A stretch of 39,802 nt of DNA from Bacillus sp. AFS059628 (GTDB lineage: Bacteria; Bacillota; Bacilli; Bacillales; Bacillaceae_G), in the NCBI RefSeq assembly GCF_002571225.1, contig NZ_NVEC01000055.1, positions 1 to 39,802 on the forward strand, in the 5' to 3' direction. A program made the translations under genes and the position numbers. Shown here in pieces: positions 6,712 through 29,870 of this stretch (within the stretch, counting starts at the first letter, position 1; the number at the start of each line of letters is the position of its first letter). A model generated the notes under the pieces. The model had not been told where the DNA came from, ran no database searches, and saw nothing but the letters and a program-made list of their open reading frames with translations.

Positions 6712-8007
6712 CTAATTTTCATTTGATGTATTTATTTGATGATTGGCTATAGTACTATACTTCTTATTCATAACTATATAAATCCAACCAATAATTGATA
6801 AGATAACTGGATAAAAAATAGCCCAACCACTAAATGAGTATACAATAATACATATAATGAGAGAAAGGAAGGCCATCCACCAACCAATATCACGCACTTT
6901 TAATAATTTAAGTGCAGCTAGCATTGTAAAAATATATGAGGTAATAAAAATTACACTAGGACCTTTAAGAAGCATTTCTAAATTTGGTCGTGCCACACCA
7001 TAAAAAATTAAAATACAACTAAAAATTCCTCCTAAAACTAGTAATACCCTAGTTGGAGTTTGAAATTGAGAATGTAACCTAGCAAAGAAGGAAGGGAAAT
7101 GTCCTTCTCTAGCTTGAGCGTAAATCATTCTTGAAAAACCTGCAATGTTAGCATGTACAGCACTAAACGAAATGAAAATTGCTAAGATAGTTGTTATATA
7201 GGTACCTATTGGTCCTAATCCTTTTGATATTAGAATACTAAGGGAAGCTATCTGATTCTTATCACCATATGAGTGGGTCCCTATTGTTACAAAAGATATA
7301 GCAATGTACATAATGGAGATACAAATTGCTCCTAAAAATAAACTAATGGAAATATCTTTAGCGGGTCTTTTAAATTCTTCAGCTAATGGGGTTATCATTT
7401 CCCACCCTACAAAGGAGAAAAAGATAATTACAGAAGAAGCGCCAACGGAAGACCACCCGTTTGGTACAAATGGTGTAAAAGAACTTAATTTTACATATGG
7501 TATAGAAACGATAACAGCGACAACTATTAAAAGTGAAATAATACAAATTACAAACACACTAACTTTTGACGATAGTTCTATCCCTTTTATATGTAGGAGC
7601 AAAGAGGTAATTAAAATTAATGCTGCAATTCCTATAACACTAAGATTGCTTATTGGAAAAACATATCCAATATAATGGGCACCTGTTAAAGCAATAATCG
7701 GCACTCCAATAGGAATAGATCCTAACATAATCCATCCTAGGATTGCACTCGTATTTGCATTAAATGCCATCTGAACATAAGCTGTAATTCCTCCAGCACT
7801 AGGAATCATTTTAGCAAGACGCGCTAGAGTTGCTACAATAGGAAAAGCTAATATAGACATGATAACCCAAGATAAAATTGAAGCTGGTCCAGCGCTATTT
7901 GCAGTAATTGAAGGTAAAATAAGGATTCCACAGCCTAACACAGCTCCGATGGTTAATGCGGTCCCCTGTACCCAAGTAATTGAACGTTTCAATGATTGTT
8001 GTGTCAA
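6712..8007 (-). CDS. APC-superfamily amino-acid transporter, YjeH-like
   Basis: The ATG at 8028 has no ribosome binding site. GAGAGG lies inside the first codons, nine bases before a TTG at 8007, so I take that as the start (431 residues, MTQQSLKRSITW). About twelve hydrophobic segments are visible. The first carries GAVLGCGILILPS, the substrate-binding loop of APC transporters. IPIGVPIIAL, FFSFVGWEMITPLAEEFKRP and GFSRMIYAQAREGHFP follow the layout of E. coli YjeH, an exporter of methionine and branched-chain amino acids. That resemblance favours export over uptake. It is divergent from an Lrp-type regulator across a short AT-rich region, the classic arrangement for a regulated amino-acid exporter. 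It probably handles the substrate or product of the HypE/HypF cluster. Confidence 0.85.
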   Translation of the reverse strand: MTQQSLKRSITWVQGTALTIGAVLGCGILILPSITANSAGPASILSWVIMSILAFPIVATLARLAKMIPSAGGITAYVQMAFNANTSAILGWIMLGSIPIGVPIIALTGAHYIGYVFPISNLSVIGIAALILITSLLLHIKGIELSSKVSVFVICIISLLIVVAVIVSIPYVKLSSFTPFVPNGWSSVGASSVIIFFSFVGWEMITPLAEEFKRPAKDISISLFLGAICISIMYIAISFVTIGTHSYGDKNQIASLSILISKGLGPIGTYITTILAIFISFSAVHANIAGFSRMIYAQAREGHFPSFFARLHSQFQTPTRVLLVLGGIFSCILIFYGVARPNLEMLLKGPSVIFITSYIFTMLAALKLLKVRDIGWWMAFLSLIICIIVYSFSGWAIFYPVILSIIGWIYIVMNKKYSTIANHQINTSNEN

Positions 8008-8028
8008 AATTCTCAGCCTCTCTTTCAT

Positions 8029-8157
8029 TAATTGATATTAATTATATAAAGTTTAAAAAAAAGATAACATGCTATAATTTATGTATTAATTATAATTTTC
8101 TTAAAAAATTTAAGAATTATTAAATGTTTTCTTAATTAATCAAAGGGAGGTCCAGCA
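8029..8157. promoter_or_regulatory. Divergent promoter region, permease / Lrp regulator
   Basis: This is an extremely AT-rich divergent intergenic region. A TATAAT box lies at about 8073-8078 on the plus strand. Several A/T-only inverted stretches (for example around 8098-8145) are the kind of sites Lrp/AsnC proteins bind. AAAGGGAGGT before 8158 is the ribosome binding site of the regulator. Autoregulation plus control of the exporter is the simplest reading. Confidence 0.5.
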
Positions 8158-8598
8158 ATGGATGAAACAGATTTAAAGATTCTTTCTCATCTTCAAGAAA
8201 ATGCACGTTTAAGTATGGTTGAAATAGGAAAACTAGTAGGTTTGAGTTCTCCTTCTGTTACAGAGCGAGTTAGAAGACTAGAAGAACAGGAGGTTATTAC
8301 AAGTTATCGCACGATTGTTAATCCGAAAGAATTAAAAAAACATATTACTGCGTTTGTTTTGATGGAACCAAGGGATTGCAATAAATATAAAAAATTTGCA
8401 ATGGAACATTCAGATGTGGTTGAATGTCACCGTATTGCCGGTATGTATAGTTATCTAACAAAGGTAGTGACGGAATCTGTACATACACTCGAAGACTATA
8501 TTAATTTGTGTTTAGAGTATGGAAAGCCTACAACCTTAATAGTGCTTTCTTCTCCAGTAGAACATAAATCATTTTTTACAGAGAGTGAAAAACTTTAA
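8158..8598 (+). CDS. Lrp/AsnC family transcriptional regulator
   Basis: This 146-residue protein has the two Lrp domains. Residues 1-60 form a winged helix (MDETDLKILSHLQENAR, then GLSSPSVTERVRRLEEQ as recognition helix). Residues about 65-140 form the ligand-binding RAM domain (ITAFVLMEPRD, VVECHRIAGMYSYL). Such proteins sense amino acids as octamers or dimers. Its place between the exporter and the hydrolase/HypE/HypF/aminotransferase genes suggests it senses the amino acid made or exported here. GGGAGG lies nine bases before ATG. A long hairpin separates it from the next gene. Confidence 0.95.
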   Translation: MDETDLKILSHLQENARLSMVEIGKLVGLSSPSVTERVRRLEEQEVITSYRTIVNPKELKKHITAFVLMEPRDCNKYKKFAMEHSDVVECHRIAGMYSYLTKVVTESVHTLEDYINLCLEYGKPTTLIVLSSPVEHKSFFTESEKL

Positions 8599-8632
8599 TT
8601 ACATATGAGAGATTATTCTAAATAAAAAGCGT

Positions 8633-8679
8633 AAAATTAATGCCTAATGGGAAATAGAGTCCTATTAGGTATTAATTTT
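8633..8679 (+). terminator. Terminator-like hairpin after the Lrp gene
   Basis: AAAATTAATGCCTAAT (8633-8648) pairs with 8664-8679 with one mismatch across a 15-base loop. The A/T-rich outer stem makes it a plausible terminator for the regulator's transcript. Confidence 0.65.
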
Positions 8680-8717
8680 CAGAAAATTATTTAGAAAATT
8701 TAGATAAAAAATAATAT

Positions 8718-8747
8718 TTGACATATTCTTACTACTGGTGGAATAAT
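8718..8747 (+). promoter_or_regulatory. Sigma-A type promoter for the hydrolase gene
   Basis: TTGACA at 8718-8723 and AATAAT at 8742-8747 are separated by 18 bases. A clear GGAGGT ribosome binding site precedes ATG 8802. Confidence 0.6.
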
Positions 8748-8801
8748 GAACATTGTATTTTAGAAAAATTAAATTCTTAGTTAATTGGAGGTAGGAATAT
8801 T

Positions 8802-9383
8802 ATGAAATATGCAGTGCTTACAAATGACTTACAGTACGATTTGGTTAATAAAAATGAGGATAGAATTGCAGCTGTGGAGGAGTTTACGCCTAAAATGGTG
8901 TCTTTCTTAGATACTATGAGAGAAAATGATGTTTCTATTGTTCACCTACAGTTAATTAACTTAGAAGATGATCCAAAAGCTGAACGATATGGTGATTTTT
9001 TACCAGTCACAAAGGGATCTAAGGGTGCAGAAATCTTACCTGAGTTTCTTCATGAAAAAGATATTATTATTGAGAAAAATAAGGATAGTGGTTTTTTTGA
9101 GACAAATCTTGATGAAACCTTAAAAAATTTGGGAGTAGATACAATTATTATTACGGGTATGCAGACTCAAATTTGTGTACAAACAACTGCAGCAGATGGA
9201 TTTTTCCGTGGTTATAATGTAATCGTACCAGAAGACGCGGTTGTTTCAGCGAAGGCTGAAGATAAAGAACGGGCTTTAAAGTGGTTAGGTTCATATTGTG
9301 CAAAGATTATGAGTATCGAGGAAATCTGTAATTCGATTTCTAAAAATGAAGATATTTCTTTTGATGGAGTTGCAATTCCGTAA
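8802..9383 (+). CDS. Isochorismatase-fold cysteine hydrolase
   Basis: This 193-residue member of the isochorismatase-like/nicotinamidase superfamily shows the catalytic triad: Asp9 in LTNDLQYD, Lys92 in IEKNKDSGFF, and nucleophile Cys125 in TQICVQTTAADGFFRGY. The EDAVVSAKAED stretch after the Cys is also typical. Because the nucleophilic Cys is present, it should cleave a C-N bond, as nicotinamidase, N-carbamoylsarcosine amidase and ureidoacrylate amidohydrolase do, rather than act like true isochorismatase, which lacks this Cys. The substrate cannot be read from sequence. Next to HypF and HypE, which handle carbamoyl and cyano groups, a carbamoyl or amide compound is an attractive guess. A hairpin separates it from hypE. 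Confidence 0.9.
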   Translation: MKYAVLTNDLQYDLVNKNEDRIAAVEEFTPKMVSFLDTMRENDVSIVHLQLINLEDDPKAERYGDFLPVTKGSKGAEILPEFLHEKDIIIEKNKDSGFFETNLDETLKNLGVDTIIITGMQTQICVQTTAADGFFRGYNVIVPEDAVVSAKAEDKERALKWLGSYCAKIMSIEEICNSISKNEDISFDGVAIP

Positions 9384-9396
9384 GTAAATACGTTGT

Positions 9397-9434
9397 AATA
9401 TCACTTGTTCTATGTAGCAAGTGATATTATTTTT
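9397..9434 (+). terminator. Terminator between hydrolase and hypE
   Basis: AATATCACTTG (9397-9407) pairs perfectly with 9418-9428 and is followed by ATTTTT. It would partly uncouple hypE-hypF expression from the hydrolase. Some read-through is likely because I see no strong promoter between it and the hypE start. Confidence 0.8.
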
Positions 9435-9465
9435 CAAAAATAAAAATGAAAAGGAGTTTTAATTC

Positions 9466-10494
9466 ATGAAATTAACTAAAGATTTAGAAAATATAATTTT
9501 AGACCATGGAACAGGAGGCCTATTGAGTCATGATTTAATTAGCTCAATTATTACCGCAAAACTAGAAGATGTTCATCTTGGAAAAATGGAGGATAGTGCC
9601 ATTCTTGAGGTAAGTAGTAGAAGGTTGGCGATGACAACGGACTCTTTTGTTATTGATCCTATTTTTTTTGGTGAGGGGAATATAGGTAAAGTAGCAGTTT
9701 GTGGGACGGTTAATGATTTAGCGGTTAGTGGTGCAAAACCACTTTATCTTTCATTGGCGTTAGTACTAGAAGAAGGTTTTCCAATTAAAGATTTGGAAGA
9801 AATATTGGATTCTATAAGAGAAACAGCGAAAGAAGCTGGCGTGTATATTGTTGCCGGAGATACAAAAGTTGTTAAAAAAGGTGAAGTAGACAAAATCTTT
9901 ATCAATACAACTGGAATAGGAGTTTTTGAAGGAGATGTATCACCATTTTCGGTAAACTCTATTCAAGAAGGTGACGATATCATTATAACAGGACAACTAG
10001 GAAACCATAGTATACATATCCTTTCTATAAGAGAAGGATTAGGATTTGAACAGAGAATAAATAGTGATTGTGCACCATTAAATCATATGATTTCAGAGTT
10101 AAAAAACCATTTTGGTGATTCTATACATTGTATGCGAGATATTACAAGAGGCGGTTTAGGTACAGTTTTAAATGAAGTCTCAGAAACAATTAATACCGGA
10201 ATAAAAATACAAGAAAAAGAGATTCCTATGTTAGCAGAAACCATTATGGCTGCCGATATGTTAGGTGTTAATCCAATGTATCTAGCCAATGAGGGTAATG
10301 TTTGTATGTTTGTGTCTCCAGAGGTAAGCGAGGAAGTCGTGAGAGTACTACAAAATACTAAATATGGTAAAGAAGCTGCAGTAATTGGTAAAGTTACTCA
10401 AACACAAGATAGACAAGTACTAATGGAAGCAAAATCAGGTGAATTGAAACTCATTGAGTTATTATATGGGGCAGAATTACCTCGATTATGTTAG
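9466..10494 (+). CDS. hypE: HypE-type carbamoyl dehydratase
   Basis: In hydrogenase maturation HypE receives a carbamoyl group from HypF on its C-terminal cysteine and dehydrates it with ATP to a protein thiocyanate, the cyano donor. This 342-residue protein fits the family throughout. It has DHGTGG at residues 13-18, TDSFVIDPIFF, GKVAVCGTVNDLAVSGAKP, the ATP-binding VAGDTKVVKKGEVDKIFINT, and RDITRGGLGTVLNE. It ends in PRLC, the counterpart of the canonical PRIC, so the acceptor Cys342 is kept. The ribosome binding site is AAAAGGAG. hypF follows after 10 bases. No hypA, B, C or D and no hydrogenase gene is in the window, so the cyano group probably goes elsewhere. Confidence 0.95.
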   Translation: MKLTKDLENIILDHGTGGLLSHDLISSIITAKLEDVHLGKMEDSAILEVSSRRLAMTTDSFVIDPIFFGEGNIGKVAVCGTVNDLAVSGAKPLYLSLALVLEEGFPIKDLEEILDSIRETAKEAGVYIVAGDTKVVKKGEVDKIFINTTGIGVFEGDVSPFSVNSIQEGDDIIITGQLGNHSIHILSIREGLGFEQRINSDCAPLNHMISELKNHFGDSIHCMRDITRGGLGTVLNEVSETINTGIKIQEKEIPMLAETIMAADMLGVNPMYLANEGNVCMFVSPEVSEEVVRVLQNTKYGKEAAVIGKVTQTQDRQVLMEAKSGELKLIELLYGAELPRLC

Positions 10495-10504
10495 GAGACA
10501 ATTT

Positions 10505-12835
10505 ATGAAAAAAGTAATAAATAGATTTATAAAAAAGTATCAAGTTAAAGGTATTGTGCAAGGTGTTGGTTTTAGACCTTTTGTATATAGAATAGCAAAA
10601 AAATATGATCTAAACGGATGGGTGTTAAATGATTCAAATGGAGTGCTGATAGAAGTAGAAGGGGAACAAAATAATATTACTCTTTTTATTCATGATATAG
10701 AATTTAATTCCCCAGAATTGGCTTATGTGCAAGAGGTTAAATTGGTAGAGGAGCAAGAATCTGATAATCGTTATAGCTCTTTTGATATTTTGAGTAGCCA
10801 AAAACATAGTAGTAGGCAAACTTTAATATCTCCTGATACTTATGTATGTAATGAATGTTTAGAAGAATTATTTGATCCAACGAATAGAAGGTATCGCTAT
10901 CCATTTATTAATTGTACAAATTGTGGACCTAGATATTCAATAATAAAAGATATTCCTTATGATAGACCGTATACTACAATGGCAAAATTTCCTATGTGTA
11001 AAGAGTGTGATAAAGAATATAAAGACATATTAGATCGGAGATTCCATGCACAACCAAATGCTTGTTGGAAATGTGGACCACAAGTTCAATTGAAAACAGC
11101 AGATGGTACAAATGTCCCGACTGATAATCCAATAGAAAAAACCATTGATTTGTTGAAAAAGGGGAAAATCCTAGCTATTAAAGGGTTAGGTGGATATCAC
11201 TTAGTTGTAGATCCAATGAATCATGAAGCTGTAAAAGAATTAAGAAAAAGAAAAAAACGGGATGAAAAACCTTTTGCTTTAATGTCATCTCAATTAGATG
11301 ATGTGAAAAATTTTGCTAAAATAACAAAAAACGAAGAAGTTTTATTAGTTTCTAAAGAACGGCCAATTGTGTTATTGAACAAAAAGGATAATCAGTTTAT
11401 TTCTTTAGATGTTGCACCTAATAATAATACCTATGGGGTAATGTTAGCTTATACACCACTTCATCATCTCATATTAAGAGGGAATTTTATTGCATTAATA
11501 GCTACGAGCGCCAATGTTTCTGATGAACCTATTGTATATAAAGATGGAGATGCAATTGAGCAGCTAAAAGGCATTGCAGATTATTATTTAGTACACAATA
11601 GGGAGATATTCACTAGAGTAGATGACTCTATTGTTAGGGCTATTGATTTAGATGATGAAATAACAACACTACAAATAATTCGTCGCGCCAGAGGGTATGT
11701 ACCAAACCCAATTGATTTTAAAGAAGGATCAACTAATGTACTTGCTTTAGGAGCAGAATTAAAGAATACGATTTGCTTAACTAAAGGTGAAAAAGCTTTT
11801 ATTAGTCATCATATTGGCGATTTAAAAAACTATAAAATTTATGAATCATTTAAAAATACTATAGCCCATTTACAAAAAATCTTTGAAATCAGTCCTTCCG
11901 TAATAGCAAGTGATCTTCATCCTGATTTTTATAGTACAAAATATGCATTTGATCAAAAAGCTTTACCAGTTGTACAGGTTCAGCATCATCATGCCCACAT
12001 GGCTTCTTGTATGGTTGATAATCAATTAGATGGTCCTGTTTTAGGAGTTATTTTAGATGGTACGGGTTATGGTGATGATGGGAATATTTGGGGCGGAGAG
12101 TTTTTAATTGGTGATTTTCTTAATTATGAAAGAACGGCATATATTGATTACTTTCAGCTACCAGGCGGTGATAAAGCCGTTAAAGAACCGTATAGAATCG
12201 CTTTAGGAATATTGACGCAAATATATGGTGAACAAGTCAAAGAATTACCAATAAAGATTATTTCAGAGCGAAATAGTTTTGAACTAGATGTACTTATAAA
12301 AATGATTCAAAAAGGAATTAATTCTCCTCTTACTTCAAGTATGGGAAGGCTTTTTGATGCTGTTTCAGCGCTATTGGGTGTCCGTGAAATAATCCAATAT
12401 GAAGGACAGGCTGCTATTGAGTTGGAGCAAGCGATTGATATCAATGGTTCTTCCGATCCTTTATTATCTTATGAAATAGTTGCTTCGAATGGAATTAGAA
12501 AAATTGATATAAAGCCTATGTTTAAAGAGTTGGTATCTTTGATACTTAAAAATAAGTATACCAAGGGTGAATTGAGCTATCGTTTTCATTATACAATGGT
12601 TCAAATGATTACAGAAACCTGTAAACAAATTCGTCAAGAAACAGGGATTAATAAACTAGTTCTTAGTGGGGGAGTATTTTTAAATAAGTTTTTACTTGTA
12701 GAAACATATAAGTCACTTAAGGCTTGTAAATTCGAGGTTTATATGCATAAACAAGTACCTACCAATGATGGGGGAATCTCTCTTGGTCAAGCAGCAATAG
12801 CAGCTCATCGTTATAAAGATATGCATTCAGTATAA
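10505..12835 (+). CDS. hypF: HypF-type carbamoyltransferase
   Basis: I start at ATG 10505 because AGGAGA at 10493-10498, overlapping the hypE stop, is well spaced and the protein then opens with the acylphosphatase domain. The 776 residues contain all four HypF modules. These are an acylphosphatase-like domain (VKGIVQGVGFRPFVYRIA) and four CxxC zinc-finger motifs (CNEC, CTNC, CKEC, CWKC, about 115-195). A YrdC-like carbamoyl-adenylate domain (ILAIKGLGGYHLVVDP, TSANVSDEP) and a Kae1-like transferase domain (VQHHHAHMAS, DGTGYGDDGNIWGGEF, LVLSGGVFLNKF) complete it. HypF makes carbamoyl adenylate from carbamoyl phosphate and ATP and passes the carbamoyl to HypE. Nothing is missing. With hypE it forms a full cyano-forming pair outside any hydrogenase context. 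Confidence 0.96.
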   Translation: MKKVINRFIKKYQVKGIVQGVGFRPFVYRIAKKYDLNGWVLNDSNGVLIEVEGEQNNITLFIHDIEFNSPELAYVQEVKLVEEQESDNRYSSFDILSSQKHSSRQTLISPDTYVCNECLEELFDPTNRRYRYPFINCTNCGPRYSIIKDIPYDRPYTTMAKFPMCKECDKEYKDILDRRFHAQPNACWKCGPQVQLKTADGTNVPTDNPIEKTIDLLKKGKILAIKGLGGYHLVVDPMNHEAVKELRKRKKRDEKPFALMSSQLDDVKNFAKITKNEEVLLVSKERPIVLLNKKDNQFISLDVAPNNNTYGVMLAYTPLHHLILRGNFIALIATSANVSDEPIVYKDGDAIEQLKGIADYYLVHNREIFTRVDDSIVRAIDLDDEITTLQIIRRARGYVPNPIDFKEGSTNVLALGAELKNTICLTKGEKAFISHHIGDLKNYKIYESFKNTIAHLQKIFEISPSVIASDLHPDFYSTKYAFDQKALPVVQVQHHHAHMASCMVDNQLDGPVLGVILDGTGYGDDGNIWGGEFLIGDFLNYERTAYIDYFQLPGGDKAVKEPYRIALGILTQIYGEQVKELPIKIISERNSFELDVLIKMIQKGINSPLTSSMGRLFDAVSALLGVREIIQYEGQAAIELEQAIDINGSSDPLLSYEIVASNGIRKIDIKPMFKELVSLILKNKYTKGELSYRFHYTMVQMITETCKQIRQETGINKLVLSGGVFLNKFLLVETYKSLKACKFEVYMHKQVPTNDGGISLGQAAIAAHRYKDMHSV

Positions 12836-12913
12836 ATTTACAATAGTGATTATATAACTTTTCGTTATTCTTTATAAGGATAGTAAAAATGAAAAATTAG
12901 GAGGAGCTCTTAT

Positions 12914-14188
12914 ATGGTAGTTAGTTCAAAAATGGATATATTTAATGAACTGGAATCCCAAGTTCGAAGTTATAGTAGAAGCTTTCCAACAATCTTTACT
13001 AAGTCTAAAGGATATAAATTATGGGATGTAGATGGAAAAGAGTATATTGACTTTTTCTCAGGTGCTGGGGCTCTTAATTATGGACATAATGATGAAAAAA
13101 TGAAACAAATATTAATAGATTATCTTTTAGAAGATGGTATTATTCATAGTCTTGATATGGGAACAAGTGCTAAAGTGAGTTTTTTAAAGCACTTTAACAA
13201 AATTATTTTGGAACCACGTGATTTAGACTATAAAATTATGTTTCCTGGTCCAACAGGTACAAATTCTGTTGAAAGTGCACTGAAAATTGCTCGAAAAGTG
13301 ACTGGAAGAACTAATATCATAAGTTTTTCTAATGCTTTTCATGGAATGAGTTTAGGATCACTTTCGATAACGAGTAATCATTTTAAGAGAAAAGGTGCTG
13401 GGGTACCACTAAATAATAGTATTATCATGCCGTATGAAAATTATTTAGATTCTCTTAATTCTTTAACATATTTAGAAAAAGTATTAGGTGATAGTGGAAG
13501 TGGGGTGGATTTACCTTCTGCAATTATTCTAGAAACAGTTCAAGGTGAGGGTGGTTTAAATACCGCTAGCCCTCAATGGTTAAAGGGGATTGACGAAATT
13601 TGTAAAAAGTATAATATATTACTGATTATTGATGATATTCAAGCAGGGTGTGGACGTACGGGTACATTTTTTAGCTTTGAACCTGCGAACATTAAACCAG
13701 ACATAATTTGTTTGTCAAAGTCTATAAGTGGCATTGGTCTTCCAATGGCTATTACACTTATTAAACCGGAATATGACAAGTGGGAACCAGGAGAACATAA
13801 TGGAACGTTTCGTGGGAATAATTTAGCATTTTTAGCTGCTACAGAAGCATTGAGTTATTGGCAAGATATAGAGTTTATTAATGCTTTAAAATGGAAGAGT
13901 GAAAAAATAACTAGTTTTCTTAATGGGATTTGTTTGAAATATCCCCAACTTCAAGGAGAAGTAAGAGGAAGAGGGTTTATGCAAGGAATAGCGTGTAATA
14001 CTCTTGGAATAGCTAAAAAGATCTGCTCAGTAGCATTTGAAAATGGTTTAATTATTGAAACATCTGGACCTAGTGATGAAGTTATTAAGTTGTTACCTTC
14101 TTTAACAATAGATTTAGAAGGTTTATGTAAAGGGTTGGAACTGTTAGAAGAGAGTATTTCTACTATTTTAAAAGAGGTAACTCATTAA
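12914..14188 (+). CDS. Class III aminotransferase, EctB-like diaminobutyrate-2-oxoglutarate transaminase
   Basis: This 424-residue fold-type I PLP enzyme closely follows EctB/diaminobutyrate transaminases. It shows [19 protein letters not shown] at the start, then [17 protein letters not shown] and [28 protein letters not shown], the Asp of [16 protein letters not shown] and the PLP lysine (Lys269) in [12 protein letters not shown] follow. [14 protein letters not shown] is also diagnostic. The expected reaction is L-glutamate plus aspartate 4-semialdehyde to 2,4-diaminobutyrate, or the reverse. No ectA or ectC is nearby, so this is not an ectoine operon. It is last in the hypE-hypF unit with a strong AGGAGG-type site, 78 bases after hypF, and is closed by a terminator. 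A diamino acid is thus the likely scaffold for the HypE/HypF-made group. Confidence 0.9.
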
Positions 14189-14228: not shown

Positions 14229-14265
14229 ACAAAAAGGACTGCAAGTAATTGCCAGTCCTTTTTGT
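14229..14265 (+). terminator. Terminator closing the HypE/HypF/aminotransferase unit
   Basis: ACAAAAAGGACTG pairs with CAGTCCTTTTTGT across an 11-base loop, followed by more T-rich DNA. It lies 41 bases after the aminotransferase stop. Confidence 0.9.
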
Positions 14266-17768: not shown

Positions 17769-18758
17769 TTATGTAGATTCACGAATAATTAAGTTTGTAG
17801 GGTATTCAATAATTTTACGTTTAATAGATTCATCTGTATTTATATATAGTAGTATCTCGTTAACGGTACGTTTACTCAGTTCAACAATTGGAATATCAAT
17901 AGTACTAATTGTTGGGGTTGTAACTGTACAAATTAATTGATTATCATAACCACAAACAGCTAAGTCAGTTGGAATAGAATACCCCCTAATAGTAGCTCCT
18001 TTAATGACTCCAGCAGCAACTTGATCATTTCCTGTAAATAATGCAGTAGGTTTATCTTTTAATTTATCTAGCTTCTCAAAAATTCTAAACCCATCATTAA
18101 TAGTAATGGCATCTCCAAATAGCCATTTTTTATTGAATGGTAATTGTTTTTCTTTTAAGGCATGCAGATAACCTTGTTGGCGTTTTAATTGTGCTTGACT
18201 ATTAAGAGAATCAAAACAAAAGCCAATTTTTTTATGACCTTTGCTTATTAAATGTTTAACAGCTTTGTATCCAGCTTCAAATTCATCGTAACAAATTATC
18301 GGAATAGGTGCATTTTCCTCATACTCATTACAAAGTATTATGGGCCCATATGCTAAATAATGCTCTATATTTTCCCAACTATTTTCTAGAGATCCGAGAA
18401 TTACACCATCTACAGCTTTATTCTTTAGTAATGAAAGTAATTCAAGCTCTATTTTTTTCTCATAAAAAGTCTGATAAATTAGCAATTTGTAATTGTGTTT
18501 TAATAATTCTTTAGAAATTTCTCTAGCTAATTTCCCGAAAAAGGGATGATCTATATTTGGAATTGATAGAGCAATGGTTTGTGTCTTATTTATCCTAAGA
18601 TTTCTAGCAATAGCACTAGGAGTATAGTTGAATTCTTGCATTACTTTTATTATTTTCTCACGTTTTTCTGAATTTACATAAGGATGATTATTTAGAACTC
18701 TTGAAACCGTAGCATTTGATACATTACATAATTTAGCTATTTCATTAATTGTTACCAT
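17769..18758 (-). CDS. ntdR: LacI-family regulator of the kanosamine operon (NtdR/KabR-like)
   Basis: This 329-residue LacI/GalR protein has an N-terminal helix-turn-helix (VTINEIAKLCNVSNATVSRV, hinge YTPSAIARNLR) and a periplasmic-binding-protein-like sensor (DGVILGSL, IGFCFDS, ALFTGNDQVAAGVI, DLAVCGYDNQ). It is divergent from ntdABC, as ntdR is in B. subtilis, where NtdR activates ntdABC in response to neotrehalosadiamine. B. cereus UW85 has a comparable kanosamine regulator, named kabR as I recall. The gene name is given by position and family. The operator is probably the TGTAATCGATAACA site in the shared upstream region. Confidence 0.85.
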   Translation of the reverse strand: MVTINEIAKLCNVSNATVSRVLNNHPYVNSEKREKIIKVMQEFNYTPSAIARNLRINKTQTIALSIPNIDHPFFGKLAREISKELLKHNYKLLIYQTFYEKKIELELLSLLKNKAVDGVILGSLENSWENIEHYLAYGPIILCNEYEENAPIPIICYDEFEAGYKAVKHLISKGHKKIGFCFDSLNSQAQLKRQQGYLHALKEKQLPFNKKWLFGDAITINDGFRIFEKLDKLKDKPTALFTGNDQVAAGVIKGATIRGYSIPTDLAVCGYDNQLICTVTTPTISTIDIPIVELSKRTVNEILLYINTDESIKRKIIEYPTNLIIREST

Positions 18759-18783
18759 AGAAAAACCCTCCGTAAAAAATATG

Positions 18784-18814
18784 TTGACATGTAATCGATA
18801 ACATAAAATATAGT
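18784..18814 (+). promoter_or_regulatory. ntdA promoter with cre/LacI-type operator
   Basis: TTGACA at 18784-18789 is followed by a possible TATAGT at 18809-18814 with 19-base spacing. Between them, ATGTAATCGATAACAT (18789-18804) is a near-perfect palindrome centred on CG. It fits the catabolite-response consensus WTGNAANCGNWWNCA at every position. CcpA or the adjacent LacI-type regulator, or both, could bind here. Confidence 0.6.
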
Positions 18815-18850
18815 CTACTCATGATTTTCAAAATAATTTCTTAGAGGTGA

Positions 18851-21029
<2,179 letters not shown>

Positions 21030-21046
21030 AAGGGGATGTTCATATA

Positions 21047-22096
21047 ATGAATATTGGGATTATAGGTGCAGGAAGTATTGCAAGAGCTCATTCTAGAGCA
21101 TTATCAACTGTTGATAGTTGTAAATTAGTTGGAGTGTATGATGTTAATTCTGAGAATGCCGATAAATTGGTAGGGGATTTTGGTGGGAAGGTTTTTAATA
21201 GCTATGAAGAGTTACTAGAAGTAGTTGATGGGGTAATAATATCTTCTCCGAATTTTTGTCATAAATCTCAAGCTGTTCAAGCATTATTAAAAAACAAACA
21301 TGTTTTATGTGAAAAGCCTATGGCGATTTCTTGTGAGGAAGCAAAGTACATGATGACAATAGCGAAAAATACTAATTTAGTCGCTTCAATGGGGTTTAAC
21401 TATCGCTACCTATCTTATGTTAAGGCTTTAAAACAATTAATTCAAAATGAAGAATTAGGGGAAATAGTAGTGGTAAGATTGCATTTTAAAAAGAATAGCG
21501 CTTTTAGGAGAACTTCGTTTACTTGGCGAGATGATTCCCAAAGTAATAGAACTAGTGGGGCCTTAGGAGATTTAGGAATTCATCTAATAGATTTATTATG
21601 GTTTTTATTTGAGAGTGATTTTAGAGAGGATACTGTTCGAACTAAAATTAAAACAAACGTTAAGGAAAAAGAAAGCAAACCAGTTTTTGTTGATGACTAT
21701 GCTGAAGTTTATGGCCAATTGAATAATAAGGTTTTTGTTAATATTACAACATCTAAAAGCTCATTTCTTGACGATTGTGGTTTTAGTATAGAGGTAATAG
21801 GTACGAAGAAAGAATATAAGTATTCTTCTAAAGAGCCAAATAAATATATACTCTTTGATGGGTTGGAAAAACATGAAATCTCGTTACCTTTACCGTTGCT
21901 AGTCGATCCAGAAAATGAAATTTTTGAATGGTCTGATTCTTTTAGAAGTGAAATAATAGAATGGGCTAAGGCTGCGGCAGGTGGTCCTAATAAGTCTGTA
22001 GCAACATTTGAAGATGGATTTCGTTCACAAGTTATATTGGATATGTTTTTTGATAAAAGCAGTAGTAATAAAGAACGAACTGTAGCAACTATTTAG
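21047..22096 (+). CDS. ntdC: Glucose-6-phosphate 3-dehydrogenase
   Basis: NtdC oxidises glucose 6-phosphate at C3 with NAD to feed NtdA. The 349-residue Gfo/Idh/MocA protein has the Rossmann motif IGIIGAGSIARAHSRAL at the N-terminus and CEKPMAISCEEA with the catalytic Lys. GALGDLGIHLIDLLWFL provides the conserved Asp and His. AAAGGGGATG precedes the ATG. It completes the set needed to make kanosamine from glucose 6-phosphate. A hairpin terminator follows 10 bases after the stop. Confidence 0.92.
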   Translation: MNIGIIGAGSIARAHSRALSTVDSCKLVGVYDVNSENADKLVGDFGGKVFNSYEELLEVVDGVIISSPNFCHKSQAVQALLKNKHVLCEKPMAISCEEAKYMMTIAKNTNLVASMGFNYRYLSYVKALKQLIQNEELGEIVVVRLHFKKNSAFRRTSFTWRDDSQSNRTSGALGDLGIHLIDLLWFLFESDFREDTVRTKIKTNVKEKESKPVFVDDYAEVYGQLNNKVFVNITTSKSSFLDDCGFSIEVIGTKKEYKYSSKEPNKYILFDGLEKHEISLPLPLLVDPENEIFEWSDSFRSEIIEWAKAAAGGPNKSVATFEDGFRSQVILDMFFDKSSSNKERTVATI

Positions 22097-26264: not shown

Positions 26265-26916
26265 TTTGTTTTGAGATGAATTTCACAAAGATAGAAGATC
26301 TAAAGAGCTTGAAATAATACACAGAAAAAGAATAATCTTTGACCAATGATTATTCGTAACAAATAGAGGTGGCTGAGTTATAAGCATACTCCAAATCTTA
26401 AGTATAGCTGTAATTAGAAGGATTTCATAAGTGTTTTGTAATGTAAGGAGCTCCTTTCAGGGGAGCTTTTTTATATTATTAATAATAATTTCATGTACCA
26501 TAATTGTTATTAATAATATAAAAAACTACAACAAGGGGGTTCAGTTCAAGCCAGGTCACAGTAATACATTAGTTGCCGCCTTTCTTTTTTTGAAGGAGAT
26601 TTTTATATTTTGGCTAGTGCGACATTGCTATCAAGTTAAGATTATACAAAGTCAATTTAAGGCGGAATTGTTTCCTTTTTCTAAAGGGAGAGTATATTGC
26701 TTTATCTATTGTAAATAATTTTGAGTCAGATAAATCTTTTATTCTTGGCATAAAATTAAATCTTAATAGATGGGTAAATTTAAAAATCTATTTGGTGTAA
26801 CCGACTCTGTCTGTATACAACAATGGACTTTACTTGGAGTAATAGGTATGATAGGCTCGTTATTCGGAAAAGATTCCTGTTGAAAAAAGTACATCCATAG
26901 AGGAGGATTGGTAACC
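26265..26916. other. Gene-less interval upstream of vanR
   Basis: A terminator-type hairpin lies at 26448-26473: AGCTCC pairs with GGAGCT across a short loop, followed by a T-run. An ORF at 26431-26718 overlaps it and has poor composition and no ribosome binding site, so I do not count it. The vanR ribosome binding site AGGAGG is at 26901-26906. No VanR-box-like repeat comparable with those after vanS is obvious here. Confidence 0.5.
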
Positions 26917-27612
26917 ATGAGTGATAAAGTACTTATTGTGGAAGATGAACGCGAAATTGCCGATTTGGTTGAGCTTTACTTGAAAAATGAGAATTATACG
27001 GTTTTCAAATACTATACCGCCAAAGAAGCATTGGAATGTATAGATAAGAATGTGCTTGACCTTGCAATATTGGATATCATGCTACCCGACGTAAGTGGTC
27101 TCACTATCTGTCAAAAAATAAGGGACAAGCACACCTATCCAATTATCATGTTGACGGCGAAAGATACAGAAATAGATAAAATTACAGGGCTAACAATTGG
27201 TGCGGACGATTATATTACAAAGCCCTTTCGCCCACTAGAGTTAATTGCGCGAGTCAAGGCGCAGTTACGCCGATATAAAAAATACAATGGAGTAACGGCA
27301 CAGAACGAGAATGTTATCGTACACTCTGGTCTTGTCATTAATATAAGCACGCATGAGTGTTCTCTGAACGAGAAGCCGTTATCTCTCACTCCCACCGAGT
27401 TTTCAATCTTGCGTATCCTCTGTGAGAACAAGGGGAATGTGGTTAGCTCTGAGCAGCTGTTTCATGAGATATGGGGTGACGAATATTTCAGCAAGAGTAA
27501 TAACACTATCACCGTGCATATCCGACATCTGCGAGAAAAGATGAACGATACGGTTGATAATCCGAAGTATATAAAAACGGTATGGGGGATCGGCTATAAA
27601 ATTGAAAAATAA
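26917..27612 (+). CDS. vanR: VanR-type response regulator (VanA-like)
   Basis: ATG 26917 follows AGGAGG by 10 bases and gives 231 residues, the length I recall for VanA-type VanR. The receiver domain has the acidic pocket (VEDE), the phospho-acceptor Asp53 in LAILDIMLP, MLTAKD, and Lys in ADDYITKPF. The OmpR-type winged helix covers about 130-231 (SLTPTEFSILRILCENKGNV, NNTITVHIRHLREKM, WGIGYKIEK). By memory most positions equal the enterococcal Tn1546 protein. VanR switches on vanHAX and its own promoter. GC content and codon use look higher than in neighbouring AT-rich genes, suggesting transfer. It overlaps vanS by 11 bases. Confidence 0.93.
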   Translation: MSDKVLIVEDEREIADLVELYLKNENYTVFKYYTAKEALECIDKNVLDLAILDIMLPDVSGLTICQKIRDKHTYPIIMLTAKDTEIDKITGLTIGADDYITKPFRPLELIARVKAQLRRYKKYNGVTAQNENVIVHSGLVINISTHECSLNEKPLSLTPTEFSILRILCENKGNVVSSEQLFHEIWGDEYFSKSNNTITVHIRHLREKMNDTVDNPKYIKTVWGIGYKIEK

Positions 27613-28756
27613 AAAGAAGAATAAAAAAATCGATTATTCAAAATTAAAACGGAAACTCTACCAATATATCTTTACGATTGTCATGGCAGCAGTTATATTT
27701 GTGCTGTTTTTGCGTCTATTTATCCAAGGGACACTTGGGGAGTGGATTGTACGTTTTTTGGAAAACAGTTATCATTTAGAGCGTTGGGACGCAATGATAA
27801 TATATCAGTATACTATACGGAACAATATAGAAATTTTCATTTATGTGGCGGTTGCCATTAGTATTCTTATTCTATGCCGCGTTATGCTTTTAAAATTTGT
27901 AAAATACTTTGAAGAGATAAATACCGGTATTGATATACTTATTCAGAACGAAGATAAACAAATTGAGCTTTCTGCGGAATTGGAGTTCATGGAACAGAAG
28001 CTCAACACATTAAAGCGAACCCTTGAAAAGCGAGAGCATGATGCAAAGCTGGCCGAACAAAGAAAAAATGAAGTTGTTATGTACTTGGCACACGATATTA
28101 AAACGCCTCTTACATCAGTTATCGGTTATCTGATCCTGCTTGACGAGGCACCCGACATGCCAAGAGAGCAAAAGGCAAAGTACGTGCATATCACGTTAGA
28201 CAAAGCATATCGTCTGGAACAGTTAATCAACGAGTTTTTTGAGATTACGCGATATAACCTTCAAACGATTACGCTCACGAAAAAGCACATAGACCTATAC
28301 TATATGCTGGTGCAAATGACTGATGAATTTTATCCCCAGCTTGCTGCGAGGGGAAAACAGGTGGTACTCCATGCTTCTGAAGATTTGACCGTATTTGGTG
28401 ACGCTGATAAGCTAGCGAGGGTCTTTAACAATATTTTGAAAAACGCCACTGCATACAGCAAGGACGACAGTGTTATTGACATTACGGCGAACCTATCCGA
28501 AGATGTGGTATCCATCGTTTTCGAGAACGACGGAAACATCCCGAAAGATAAACTTGCTACCATATTTGAAAAGTTTTACAGATTGGATGATGCCCGTTCT
28601 TCTGATACGGGCGGCGCGGGACTTGGATTGGCGATTGCCAAAGAAATCATTGTTCAACATGGCGGACAGATTTACGCGGAAAGTAATGATAACTCTACGA
28701 CTTTCACGGTAGAACTTCCAGTCTTTCAAGGCTCGGTTAATAAAGGGAATTCTTAG
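27602..28756 (+). CDS. vanS: VanS-type sensor histidine kinase (VanA-like)
   Basis: It starts at TTG 27602 within the end of vanR, giving 384 residues. Two membrane segments (about 21-41 and 76-96) enclose a short external loop of about 35 residues. This is the VanA-type layout, which responds to glycopeptide or cell-wall stress. His164 lies in MYLAHDIKTPLTS. The N box (ARVFNNILKNATAYS), the G boxes (RSSDTGGAGLGLAIAKE) and the F box (FEKFYRL) are intact, so an active kinase/phosphatase is expected. Divergence from the remembered Tn1546 protein is concentrated in the membrane and loop part. No vanH, vanA or vanX gene is in the window, so the pair is an orphan or has new targets. Confidence 0.93.
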   Translation: MKNKKKNKKIDYSKLKRKLYQYIFTIVMAAVIFVLFLRLFIQGTLGEWIVRFLENSYHLERWDAMIIYQYTIRNNIEIFIYVAVAISILILCRVMLLKFVKYFEEINTGIDILIQNEDKQIELSAELEFMEQKLNTLKRTLEKREHDAKLAEQRKNEVVMYLAHDIKTPLTSVIGYLILLDEAPDMPREQKAKYVHITLDKAYRLEQLINEFFEITRYNLQTITLTKKHIDLYYMLVQMTDEFYPQLAARGKQVVLHASEDLTVFGDADKLARVFNNILKNATAYSKDDSVIDITANLSEDVVSIVFENDGNIPKDKLATIFEKFYRLDDARSSDTGGAGLGLAIAKEIIVQHGGQIYAESNDNSTTFTVELPVFQGSVNKGNS

Positions 28757-28815
28757 AAAATAATCATTGTTTCTTAAGAAATTCTTAAGGTTATCTCTAC
28801 TTTTTCTTAGGAAAT
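28750..28815 (+). promoter_or_regulatory. Four in-phase VanR-box-like repeats after vanS
   Basis: TTCTTAG or TTCTTAAG occurs at 28750, 28771, 28782 and 28804. The spacings of 21, 11 and 22 bases are all close to whole helical turns. Three of the four continue as AAAAT, AAAT or GAAAT (for example TTCTTAGGAAATT). From memory the VanR consensus is TCGTANGAAATT, and the vanH promoter of Tn1546 has a similar repeat array. This is probably the surviving vanH promoter region. Confidence 0.6.
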
Positions 28816-28838
28816 TAACAATTTAATATTAATAAATG

Positions 28839-28886
28839 GCTCGTTCTTATGCAGTAGATTTAAATCATAAGAACGAGCTTTTTTAT
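28839..28886 (+). terminator. Terminator or attenuator hairpin in the former vanH leader
   Basis: GCTCGTTCTTATG at 28839-28851 pairs perfectly with 28866-28878, followed by TTTTTTA. A hairpin with the same CTCGTTCTTA stem lies between vanS and vanH in Tn1546 as I remember it. Confidence 0.85.
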
Positions 28887-28935
28887 TTCGTCAAAGAAAG
28901 ACATGATAACTTATGCGTGGATTAAAATAGCTTAC

Positions 28936-29175
28936 ATGAATAAAGAGCTGTTTTTTCAGAGTAAAGTAGAGGTTCAAAAATATGATCAAAATCACAAAGA
29001 TAACATAGATAATACAGGGACTACCTCAATTTTTCATTAAGATGGGGAAAAATATTTGATTTCATATTATTCTTTTTTTCAAAATAAAACAATTGAAGTT
29101 GAAATACCAGTGAATGAATTTTATGGAATATATGGAGAAAATATAGATGGGGTGATTGTGACCACCCGTTCTTGA
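28936..29175 (+). pseudogene. Small gene interrupted by one in-frame stop
   Basis: From ATG 28936 (or ATG 28903 in the same frame) the reading frame runs MNKELFFQSKVEVQKY and so on to a TAA at 29038-29040. It then continues in the same frame with good protein-like sequence (DGEKYLISYYSFFQ, IEVEIPVNEFYGIYGE) to TGA at 29173-29175. One point mutation at the stop would restore an 80-codon (or 91-codon) gene. I do not recognise the family. It sits where vanH would be expected after the VanR-type control region. Confidence 0.5.
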
Positions 29176-29231
29176 ATTATATTCTAAAATGACAAAGTTA
29201 TAAATTACAATGTAAAGTTAGGAGATTTTAA

Positions 29232-29870
29232 ATGCATTCAGAAGTTTTGATTAATTATTTATATACTTATTTTTTTACTATTATTTTTTGTATAGTGTTT
29301 CAAATTGGATTTTATTTTAAAACGAAAAAAAATATATCTATTCAGCATTTTCTATGGGTGTATGTTTTTCTATTCTACCTTTCACTAGTGTATAAGGTAA
29401 CGCAGATAGGGACTATATGGGACATAGGAAGATACGAAACATTAATTCGTGCAAATCAAATTAACTTGATTCCATTTGCTTCTGAAGGTATGACTACTTA
29501 TGTCTTAAACATTTTACTGTTTATGCCATTAGGTTTTTTATTGCCGACTATTTGGCCGCAGTTTAGAAGAATGAAAAGTGCTGCCTATGCTGGATTCGGT
29601 TTTTCATTGGCTATTGAGTTAGGTCAATTGCTAGATAATAGAATTACAGATATTGATGATTTATCTATGAACACCCTGGGAGCAATTATTGGGTATTTAT
29701 TATATAGAGTATTATTCAAAATGATATATAAAAGAGATGAAAAAAAGATTGATAATAATATCTCTCTAGTAATAAAATACGAGGCTATTTTTTATTTAGT
29801 TTGCTCATTTGTAGGTATGATGTTAATTTATTATCCAGTTTTATTTAGACGGCCTTTAATGCTTCAATAA
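29232..29870 (+). CDS. VanZ-family membrane protein
   Basis: This 212-residue protein has five or so hydrophobic segments and the VanZ-like core: NLIPF, then YVLNILLFMPLGFLLPTIWP, FGFSLAIELGQLLDNRITDI and DDLSMNTLGAIIGYLLY. VanZ proteins raise low-level teicoplanin or lipoglycopeptide resistance by an unknown mechanism. The Asp-rich segment TDIDDLSMNTLG is the family hallmark. Its sequence does not resemble the Tn1546 VanZ beyond the family pattern, and its base composition is AT-rich like local DNA, unlike vanRS. It may therefore be native and adjacent by chance. TTAGGAGA precedes the ATG. Confidence 0.85.
   Translation: MHSEVLINYLYTYFFTIIFCIVFQIGFYFKTKKNISIQHFLWVYVFLFYLSLVYKVTQIGTIWDIGRYETLIRANQINLIPFASEGMTTYVLNILLFMPLGFLLPTIWPQFRRMKSAAYAGFGFSLAIELGQLLDNRITDIDDLSMNTLGAIIGYLLYRVLFKMIYKRDEKKIDNNISLVIKYEAIFYLVCSFVGMMLIYYPVLFRRPLMLQ

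Follow-up and report, generated by a model that had tools for sequence, protein, structure and literature searches.

A cysteine hydrolase-HypE-HypF cassette that may serve as a cyano donor in small-molecule synthesis

Results

The hypE-hypF locus of a Bacillus contig

In the literature that we found, HypE and HypF serve one purpose, the synthesis of the cyanide ligands of [NiFe]-hydrogenases. We analysed a stretch of 39,802 nucleotides from Bacillus sp. AFS059628 (contig NZ_NVEC01000055.1, positions 1 to 39,802; hereafter, the window) in which hypE and hypF lie with genes for a cysteine hydrolase (CHase), an aminotransferase of the L-2,4-diaminobutyrate (DABA) type, a regulator and a transporter (Table 1). 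CHase, HypE and HypF recur together in other bacteria, where their HypE forms a clade of its own. The best explanation of the findings as a whole appears to be a dedicated cyano-donor cassette for small-molecule synthesis, to which we give a probability of about 0.5. Papers are cited by PMC number, and statements about them refer to the parts of their text that were accessible to us.

Table 1. Features of the window at the hypE-hypF locus
Feature	Positions	Strand	Evidence and remarks
APC-family amino-acid transporter, YjeH-like	6712..8028	-	PF13520, 152 bits; divergent from lrp
Lrp/AsnC-type regulator	8158..8598	+	PF13404 and PF01037 above cut-off
Isochorismatase-fold cysteine hydrolase (CHase)	8802..9383	+	PF00857, 123 bits (cut-off 27); catalytic D9, K92, C125
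HypE, carbamoyl dehydratase, C-terminal PRLC	9466..10494	+	TIGR02124, 463 bits (cut-off 252); K134, E276, C342
HypF, S-carbamoyltransferase for HypE	10505..12835	+	TIGR00143, 841 bits (cut-off 466)
Class III aminotransferase, EctB type (L-2,4-diaminobutyrate:2-oxoglutarate)	12914..14188	+	TIGR02407, 686 bits (cut-off 552)
Terminator-like inverted repeat with T-run, candidate	14231..14263	+	By eye, 3' of the aminotransferase

All six open reading frames (ORFs) of the original prediction were found where it had placed them. We regard their identities, based on NCBIfam and Pfam profiles, as firm, the scores leaving no room for chance. Two of the names needed adjustment. A hydrolase is indeed present where a 'C-N hydrolase' had been announced, but it belongs to PF00857, and an identity as a nitrilase-type enzyme was rejected for 8802-9383. 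Likewise, the announced YjeH-like exporter is an APC transporter, but its best NCBIfam match, PRK11021 (L-methionine/branched-chain; a model that we take to be YjeH), reached only 234 bits, below the cut-off of 284. It is likely an exporter. The genes for CHase, HypE, HypF and the aminotransferase are co-directional and separated by short gaps. The longest ORF for HypF (10454-12835) opens at a TTG at 10454; the ATG at 10505, ten bases past the HypE stop, is the most likely start.

The absence of other hydrogenase genes from the 40-kb window was borne out: HypA, HypB, HypD and the large and small NiFe subunits gave no tblastn match (one probe each), and HypC gave none with a profile. The profile was used because a single-probe tblastn had missed the annotated HypC/HupF of two Paraburkholderia plasmid loci (L043 and L044), which the profile does detect. 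No Rfam family scored above its cut-off in the window. At the DNA level, the match with the highest score in 299 genomes was 66% identical over 3.5 kb, and positions 1-25000 had no near match among plasmids. Profile scans covered 29 of the 33 ORFs of at least 120 residues, the other four being nested inside other genes.

CHase, HypE and HypF recur as a unit

A HypE scan of genome contigs yielded 38 loci. In all three with a HypE identity of 58-65%, from Cohnella faecalis (L001), the metagenome-assembled genome (MAG) SKS1.bin41 (L002) and Photobacterium marinum (L003), CHase and HypF adjoined HypE; no CHase was present in the fetched stretch of the other 35 (HypE identity at most 47%). Searching 72,556 plasmid records with CHase gave 750 matches. 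Among the 60 listed, ten had an identity of at least 46%, and in each of these ten HypF lay within about 3 kb (the regions were read for seven); the next listed CHase (36.5% identity) had no HypE or HypF annotated nearby. At least 80% of a CHase-HypE-HypF query was matched in 14 of 5,426 complete E. coli genomes, always on the chromosome, and the annotation of the ten listed matches names all three genes. The E. coli locus that was read lies close to a tRNA-Asn gene and to broken integrases; genes for a LysR regulator, a HAD phosphatase and an MFS transporter accompany its triad.

Within the Photobacterium order, a profile search added one intact cluster (L062, genome G1009) and two decayed ones (L063 and L064). 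With profile A1 (E <= 1e-35), only the genomes already known to carry the cassette were recovered from the phylum of G001 (one of 398, G001 itself) and from that of the Photobacterium genome G003 (one of 398, G003 itself). Four of 394 genomes were positive in the order of G003, including G003, and none of 299 in the order of G1137, a set without a positive control. The cassette is rare and patchy in the genome samples surveyed. A phage or viral origin was considered and rejected: no relative was found in viral_contigs, and the 26 matching phage records showed 28-31% identity among the five matches listed.

Loci had been picked by HypE (L001-L003), HypF (L039-L042), CHase (L043-L045 and L062) or the DNA of the triad (L058). 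The constancy of the triad is therefore partly a product of locus choice, and the HypE- and HypF-picked loci are the fair test; here the triad was found at three of three loci above 47% HypE identity and in four of seven plasmid regions picked by HypF. Taken together, the loci indicate that CHase-HypE-HypF is the conserved, stable unit, with CHase as constant partner of the cassette and not, as had been supposed, a mere accessory.

The cassette HypE is separate from hydrogenase HypE

All 13 cassette rows of a HypE tree fell on one side of a branch with a Shimodaira-Hasegawa-like approximate likelihood-ratio test (SH-aLRT) support of 100. The tree held 39 of 52 rows, after omission of 13 from Selenomonas and its kin, and 12 loci had been skipped in building the sets. 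The hydrogenase HypE of Paraburkholderia phymatum (L057) and the HypD-linked HypE proteins of Photobacterium (L065 and L066) fell outside the cassette clade. The C-terminus gave the same division. In hydrogenase maturation the terminal Cys of HypE lies in a PR(I/V)C motif (PMC4506123). The cassette proteins end in PRLC (13/13). All 39 others have I (35) or V (4) in the penultimate position; this set includes many near-kin from Selenomonas and one sequence trimmed by the aligner, which shows FPRV. H184 and M261 of the cassette HypE occur in none of these 39, and D13 and E140 in at most 15% of them.

The nearest sister of the clade (support 84) consists of HypE proteins from two deltaproteobacterial-type genomes (L004, 8357-9367, and L007, 4495-5685). 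They stand alone, with no HypD or HypF in 19 and 16 kb, respectively, and the neighbours scanned look unrelated to the cassette or to a hydrogenase system.

In the HypF tree the cassette copies grouped with a support of 99, together with one hydrogenase-linked member from Paraburkholderia aromaticivorans (L048, 7965-10295). At that locus, the sole HypF place on the plasmid, a cassette-clade HypF accompanies a HypE of hydrogenase type, apparently because a hydrogenase cluster captured it. Judging from this arrangement, HypF of the cassette lineage seems to be capable of working with a hydrogenase HypE, so that its chemistry is probably unchanged.

By tblastn, HypD was found at none of 14 cassette loci, of which 13 are intact and one is the decayed L064, and at 28 of the 38 other HypE/HypF loci. 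With the profile, HypC was detected at 27 of these 38, as against only L043 and L044 among the cassette loci, where it lies inside the adjacent hydrogenase operon. The original prediction counted hypC/hypD and a [NiFe]-hydrogenase elsewhere in the same genome as evidence against it. Among relatives, three of the four intact-cassette whole genomes searched, G001, G002 and G1009, gave no HypD or HypC. The fourth, Photobacterium G003, has two HypD, two HypC and a NiFe hydrogenase elsewhere, along with HypE copies separate from the cassette. These genomes are drafts, G002 being a MAG. Among G001, G002 and G003, the NiFe large subunit scored above cut-off in G003 only; G001 had one match below cut-off. 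P. phymatum possesses a hydrogenase and a second hypABCDEF set with its own HypE. As for the decayed cassettes, HypD was found in G918 (L064) and not in G1088 (L063).

We considered the possibility that the cassette is a displaced remnant or a helper set of an ordinary hydrogenase. The annotation names suggest this, the Paraburkholderia cassettes adjoin hydrogenase genes, and the HypF of L048 is hydrogenase-linked. Yet the cassette HypE forms a separate clade, P. phymatum has a second hypABCDEF set, and HypD and HypC are missing from three of the four genomes just mentioned, so that this explanation is largely refuted and scarcely tenable. That HypE and HypF of the cassette have been recruited away from hydrogenase is, from these comparisons, well supported.

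Gene contexts of the cassette

Counting near-identical loci once and leaving out the decayed L063 and L064, we distinguished ten intact contexts, which include Bacillota, Pseudomonadota and Actinomycetota (Table 2).

Table 2. The ten intact contexts of the cassette
Context	Source	Genes near or in the cassette
1	Window	APC transporter, Lrp, triad, EctB-type aminotransferase
2	Cohnella, L001	Non-ribosomal peptide synthetase (NRPS; condensation, AMP-binding, PP-binding) and aminotransferase behind HypF
3	MAG, L002	B12-radical SAM enzyme, arginase-family enzyme, NRPS, LysE-type transporter
4	Photobacterium, L003	ATP-grasp protein, DABA aminotransferase, EamA transporter
5	G1009, L062	Haem-oxygenase-like protein (just under cut-off), GNAT-like protein, aminotransferase, EamA transporter, 2-oxoglutarate-Fe (2OG-Fe) dioxygenase
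6	Paraburkholderia symbiotic plasmids, L043/L044	EctB and GNAT; hydrogenase operon adjoins
7	Rhizobium WSM2304, L041	ABC transporter, then CHase, HypE, DMT transporter, HypF in a row
8	Enterobacteria, L039, L045, L058	LysR regulator, HAD phosphatase, MFS transporter besides the triad
9	Streptomyces NBC_01361, L042	NRPS (annotation), serine hydroxymethyltransferase/transaldolase-like enzyme, 2OG-Fe dioxygenase
10	S. clavuligerus, L040	ATP-grasp, arginase-family enzyme, DUF3865-like protein (just under cut-off), MFS

DABA aminotransferases occur in five contexts (1, 2, 4, 5 and 6; broken in Cohnella). They are of the EctB type in the window and in Paraburkholderia and of the Dat type in L003 and L062, in each case above cut-off, and the best match of the Cohnella pieces is the Dat-like model PRK06938; two subtypes have been recruited in different lineages. 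Peptide-forming genes, for NRPS or ATP-grasp enzymes, are found in five contexts (2, 3, 4, 9 and 10). The ATP-grasp protein of L003 scored above the PRK07206 cut-off and is distantly like the dapdiamide synthase DdaF (218 bits, model cut-off 840). All contexts except Rhizobium and the enterobacteria (8/10) have a peptide-forming gene, a DABA gene or both, and transporters lie nearby in seven (1, 3, 4, 5, 7, 8 and 10). Neighbours of these kinds are typical of clusters in which unusual amino acids and peptides are made.

The six-gene neighbourhood was expected to be conserved as a whole. This holds for its CHase-HypE-HypF core and in part for the DABA aminotransferase (5/10), and transporters are common; Lrp and the YjeH-like transporter were seen in the window alone, the other clusters having DMT, MFS or LysE types. 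The idea that HypE and HypF operate here in a small-molecule setting away from hydrogenase was upheld by the ten contexts and the separate HypE clade, and we consider a non-hydrogenase, small-molecule role very likely.

Two alternatives bear on what such a setting means. HypE and HypF might mature an Fe-CN site of a protein other than hydrogenase, CHase replacing HypC and HypD. Metal cyanation is the only use of the pair described in the hydrogenase papers PMC4506123 and PMC12134894, as far as accessible. However, cassette loci lack HypD and have HypC only beside the Paraburkholderia hydrogenase, and no visible metalloprotein is common to the ten contexts, the neighbours being amino-acid and peptide enzymes and transporters. 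We therefore hold this explanation to be very improbable. Alternatively, the cassette could make a simple C1-N compound that acts as a toxin or signal (cyanamide, cyanide, thiocyanate or cyanate), the cyano group being released by CHase or ammonia while the neighbours make an unrelated part. The minimal contexts, Rhizobium WSM2304 (triad with DMT and ABC transporters) and the enterobacteria (LysR, HAD phosphatase and MFS), would fit such a product. In contrast, the NRPS, ATP-grasp or DABA aminotransferase genes of 8/10 contexts point to a group that is built in, and the transporters belong to amino-acid or metabolite families; a free C1-N compound appears improbable.

Several side observations concern individual loci. 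In Cohnella (L001, 6171-14697), the NRPS, the end of HypF and the aminotransferase are in broken frames on a draft contig, through draft errors or decay. The decayed cluster L063 (9269-10741) has CHase and HAD without HypE or HypF; the decayed L064 (7567-11939), which follows a split ATP-grasp gene, has no HypE but retains HypF and a CHase from which Asp9 and Lys92 are missing. In P. phymatum, a fragment of 103 residues (L043, 14051-14362), like the Photobacterium-type aminotransferase when its translation is compared by eye, lies directly behind hypF, suggestive of the loss of a second aminotransferase. GNAT-like proteins accompany the cassette in G1009 (Photobacterium order; L062, 4666-5295) and in Paraburkholderia (L043, 8897-9517); they are alike by eye and gave no Pfam match at the threshold used.

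The cysteine hydrolase

The catalytic triad of CHase, D9, K92 and C125, is invariant in the 13 intact cassettes, and in L064, where HypE is lost, its Asp and Lys are changed. A predicted model (predicted local distance difference test score, 81) matched isochorismatase-like folds: 3hb7, RutB, the triuret, biuret and N-carbamoylsarcosine hydrolases, and also maleamate amidase and nicotinamidase, with 17-30% identity among the 50 matches listed. Residues Q11, H48, Q50, D95, Q121 and Q127 are invariant in the cassettes and differ in L049, the sole outgroup compared. As the fold often handles carbamoyl-nitrogen compounds and the gene adjoins hypE, it is reasonable to suppose, by analogy, that CHase could accept and transfer a cyano group. 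That it does so directly, as a cyano-transferase, is plausible, though we lean slightly against it.

Other genes of the window

At 17769-22096, a LacI-type regulator is divergent from a set for a PseC-like aminotransferase, a HAD-IIB phosphatase and a Gfo/Idh-like dehydrogenase (profile families); the next ORF matches MFS weakly. This set resembles ntdABC (kanosamine/neotrehalosadiamine). At 26908-29870, a VanR/VanS pair very close to the regulators of the vanA type (504 bits with the VanR-A model, whose cut-off is 500) lies with a VanZ-F-like ORF (345 bits, cut-off 375); a stretch of 1,993 bases there shows 84.6% identity to Enterococcus plasmids. No vanHAX set was found among the 29 ORFs scanned.

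Discussion

A proposed route to a cyano group

Three active-site residues of HypE are kept in the 12 sequences checked: Lys134 (in GDTK), Glu276 (in ANEG) and the C-terminal Cys342. Their counterparts by alignment in T. kodakarensis HypE are Lys134, Glu272 and Cys338, the first two being catalytic residues. Because of this conservation, the cassette HypE probably keeps its dehydration activity. The window HypF has all of its expected motifs (acylphosphatase, four CxxC, YrdC and Kae1). Simple patterns failed for YrdC in L040, for acylphosphatase in L042 and for the Kae1 C-terminus in L001 and L045, and the same patterns also failed in several hydrogenase rows. A HypE-bound (iso)thiocyanate is formed in hydrogenase maturation (PMC4506123, PMC12134894), and with the catalytic features of both proteins intact it is the natural expectation for the cassette too.

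We propose the following sequence. HypF would convert carbamoyl phosphate to carbamoyl-AMP and then carbamoylate the C-terminal Cys342 of HypE, which, with ATP, would dehydrate the thiocarbamoyl group to a protein-bound (iso)thiocyanate. A small amine would be the acceptor, in place of the iron of HypC-HypD. CHase would hand the group over, its Cys125 taking the cyano carbon and passing it to the amine. In the window, EctB would supply L-2,4-diaminobutyrate as acceptor. The product, N-cyano-DABA, would cyclise to an isomeric six-membered guanidine, 2-amino-tetrahydropyrimidine-4-carboxylate (C5H9N3O2), which the APC transporter, controlled by Lrp, would export. Elsewhere among bacteria, the triad would feed NRPS or ATP-grasp peptide pathways. 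The cyano rather than carbamoyl nature of the group, the acceptor, the role of CHase, the product, its ring closure and its export are parts that we infer. The computed mass is 143.0695 for cyano-DABA and the cyclic guanidine and 161.0800 for the ureido compound.

The ureido compound would arise if HypF and HypE stopped at the thiocarboxamide and the carbamoyl group passed, perhaps via the Cys of CHase, to an amine; N-carbamoyl-DABA is an example of the ureido amino acids that would result. HypF is, after all, a carbamoyltransferase, and the enzymes nearest to CHase in fold have carbamoyl nitrogen compounds as substrates (biuret, triuret, ureidoacrylate). However, the dehydratase residues K134, E276 and the C-terminal Cys of HypE are retained in all 12 sequences checked, and in padanamide biosynthesis N-carbamoyl DABA is made by enzymes of the ornithine transcarbamylase (OTCase) type (PMC6022934). 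As such enzymes already carbamoylate DABA, HypE and HypF are not needed for a plain ureido product, and their costly route is more sensible for a cyano group. We consider the carbamoyl alternative rather unlikely and, given a non-hydrogenase, small-molecule role, a cyano group likely.

DABA as the probable acceptor

The aminotransferase is the only evident substrate-making enzyme of the window cluster, and the acceptor there is probably, though with less assurance than the cyano group itself, derived from DABA. Nodules of a nifA mutant of P. phymatum provide a parallel (PMC8305402). Their log2 changes are -7.58 for ectB, -8.06 for the GNAT gene, -6.29 for the cysteine hydrolase (Bphy_7270), -5.17 for hypE (Bphy_7271) and -7.47 for hypF (Bphy_7272); 2,4-diaminobutanoate falls as well, which the authors tie to ectB. 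The accessible text of that paper contains no discussion of the hydrolase and the second hypEF that we could see.

Several observations weigh against the cyano-donor explanation or parts of it. The HypF tree is not clean, the L048 protein lying inside the cassette clade, so that the HypF boundary between cassette and hydrogenase appears porous. CHase was found in four of the seven plasmid regions picked by HypF and not in the other three (L046-L048); within 18 kb at L046, HypF is accompanied by neither HypE nor CHase, and the HypE of L047 and L048 is of hydrogenase type. In the decayed-looking L063, CHase keeps an intact triad though HypE and HypF are gone. The nearest characterised folds of CHase are amidohydrolases (biuret, triuret and RutB), and by analogy CHase may hydrolyse and not transfer. 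No DABA aminotransferase was seen in five of the ten contexts, which makes DABA unlikely as a universal acceptor; other acceptors probably serve there. Finally, the nodule data are correlative: the adjacent hydrogenase genes of P. phymatum depend on NifA too (hydrogenase hypF, -4.74 log2; PMC8305402), and the nifA co-regulation of the cassette is therefore not specific.

With these points taken into account, the cyano-donor cassette remains our preferred explanation, and it suggests that nitrogen-rich amino acids may be built by a route not yet described. More tentatively, and with some scepticism, we put forward a broader view: a portable module for the electrophilic cyanation of small-molecule amines, in which an isochorismatase-fold enzyme has turned cyano/amidino transferase, making N-cyano amino acids and cyclic guanidines from carbamoyl phosphate, not arginine, and which is used in antibiotic-like clusters and nitrogen-fixing nodules. 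If true, biology would gain a new cyanation reaction and a new source of guanidine or nitrile groups, and a hydrolase gene beside a PRLC-type hypE would become a genome-mining handle for undescribed metabolites. P. phymatum, in which the cassette lies beside a DABA aminotransferase gene and is transcribed in nodules, is of particular use, as there are published metabolomes both of nodules that express the cassette and of nodules that do not.

Comparison with known systems

The original prediction knew of no described pathway of this kind. We found none either, in a literature search whose coverage is thin for subscription journals and excludes preprints, except for one prior mention of such a use of hypE and hypF. 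It comes from the decRiPPter survey, which reportedly covers Streptomyces genomes. There, homologues of hypE and hypF with an ATP-grasp ligase and no other hyp genes form a candidate biosynthetic cluster, as in the cassette loci, and a novel function was suggested (PMC7794033). That cluster is listed among candidate families of ribosomally synthesized and post-translationally modified peptides, and the accessible text does not mention a cysteine hydrolase, DABA aminotransferases, a wider distribution or the chemistry. Relative to the literature found, and to the extent that it was accessible, four features are new: a cysteine hydrolase as partner, a HypE clade ending in PRLC, the occurrence in several phyla and on mobile elements, and the link to DABA.

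The window shares with ectoine biosynthesis an EctB-type aminotransferase making L-2,4-DABA, and the proposed six-membered ring would be the ectoine skeleton with an amino in place of the methyl group. We rejected an ectoine cluster because, of its genes, only EctB was present; EctA and EctC were not found among the 29 ORFs scanned, and the pathway proposed here would use a cyano donor, not an acetyl donor. Ectoine synthase had no match in G001, G003 or G1009, in a search whose controls matched nowhere either. The DABA/diaminopropionate carbamoyltransferases of padanamide, viomycin and zwittermicin also place a C1-N unit derived from carbamoyl phosphate on a diamino acid, but they are single OTCase-type enzymes that give ureido products without HypE or dehydration (PMC6022934). 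With the ureido hydrolases of the isochorismatase fold (RutB, BiuH, TrtA and N-carbamoylsarcosine amidase) CHase has in common the fold and the Asp-Lys-Cys triad; it differs in its low identity to the fold matches listed, given above, and in its location next to HypE-HypF.

The closest comparison is with the synthesis of cyano ligands for [NiFe]-hydrogenases. Both systems have a full-domain HypF and a HypE with the catalytic Lys, Glu and C-terminal Cys, and they probably share carbamoylation and dehydration. In contrast to the hydrogenase system, the cassette is without a HypC/HypD of its own, its HypE has the PRLC tail and clade-specific residues, and a cysteine hydrolase is its constant partner. 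The cassette would thus combine known cyano-forming enzymes with a new partner and, as we infer, a new destination.

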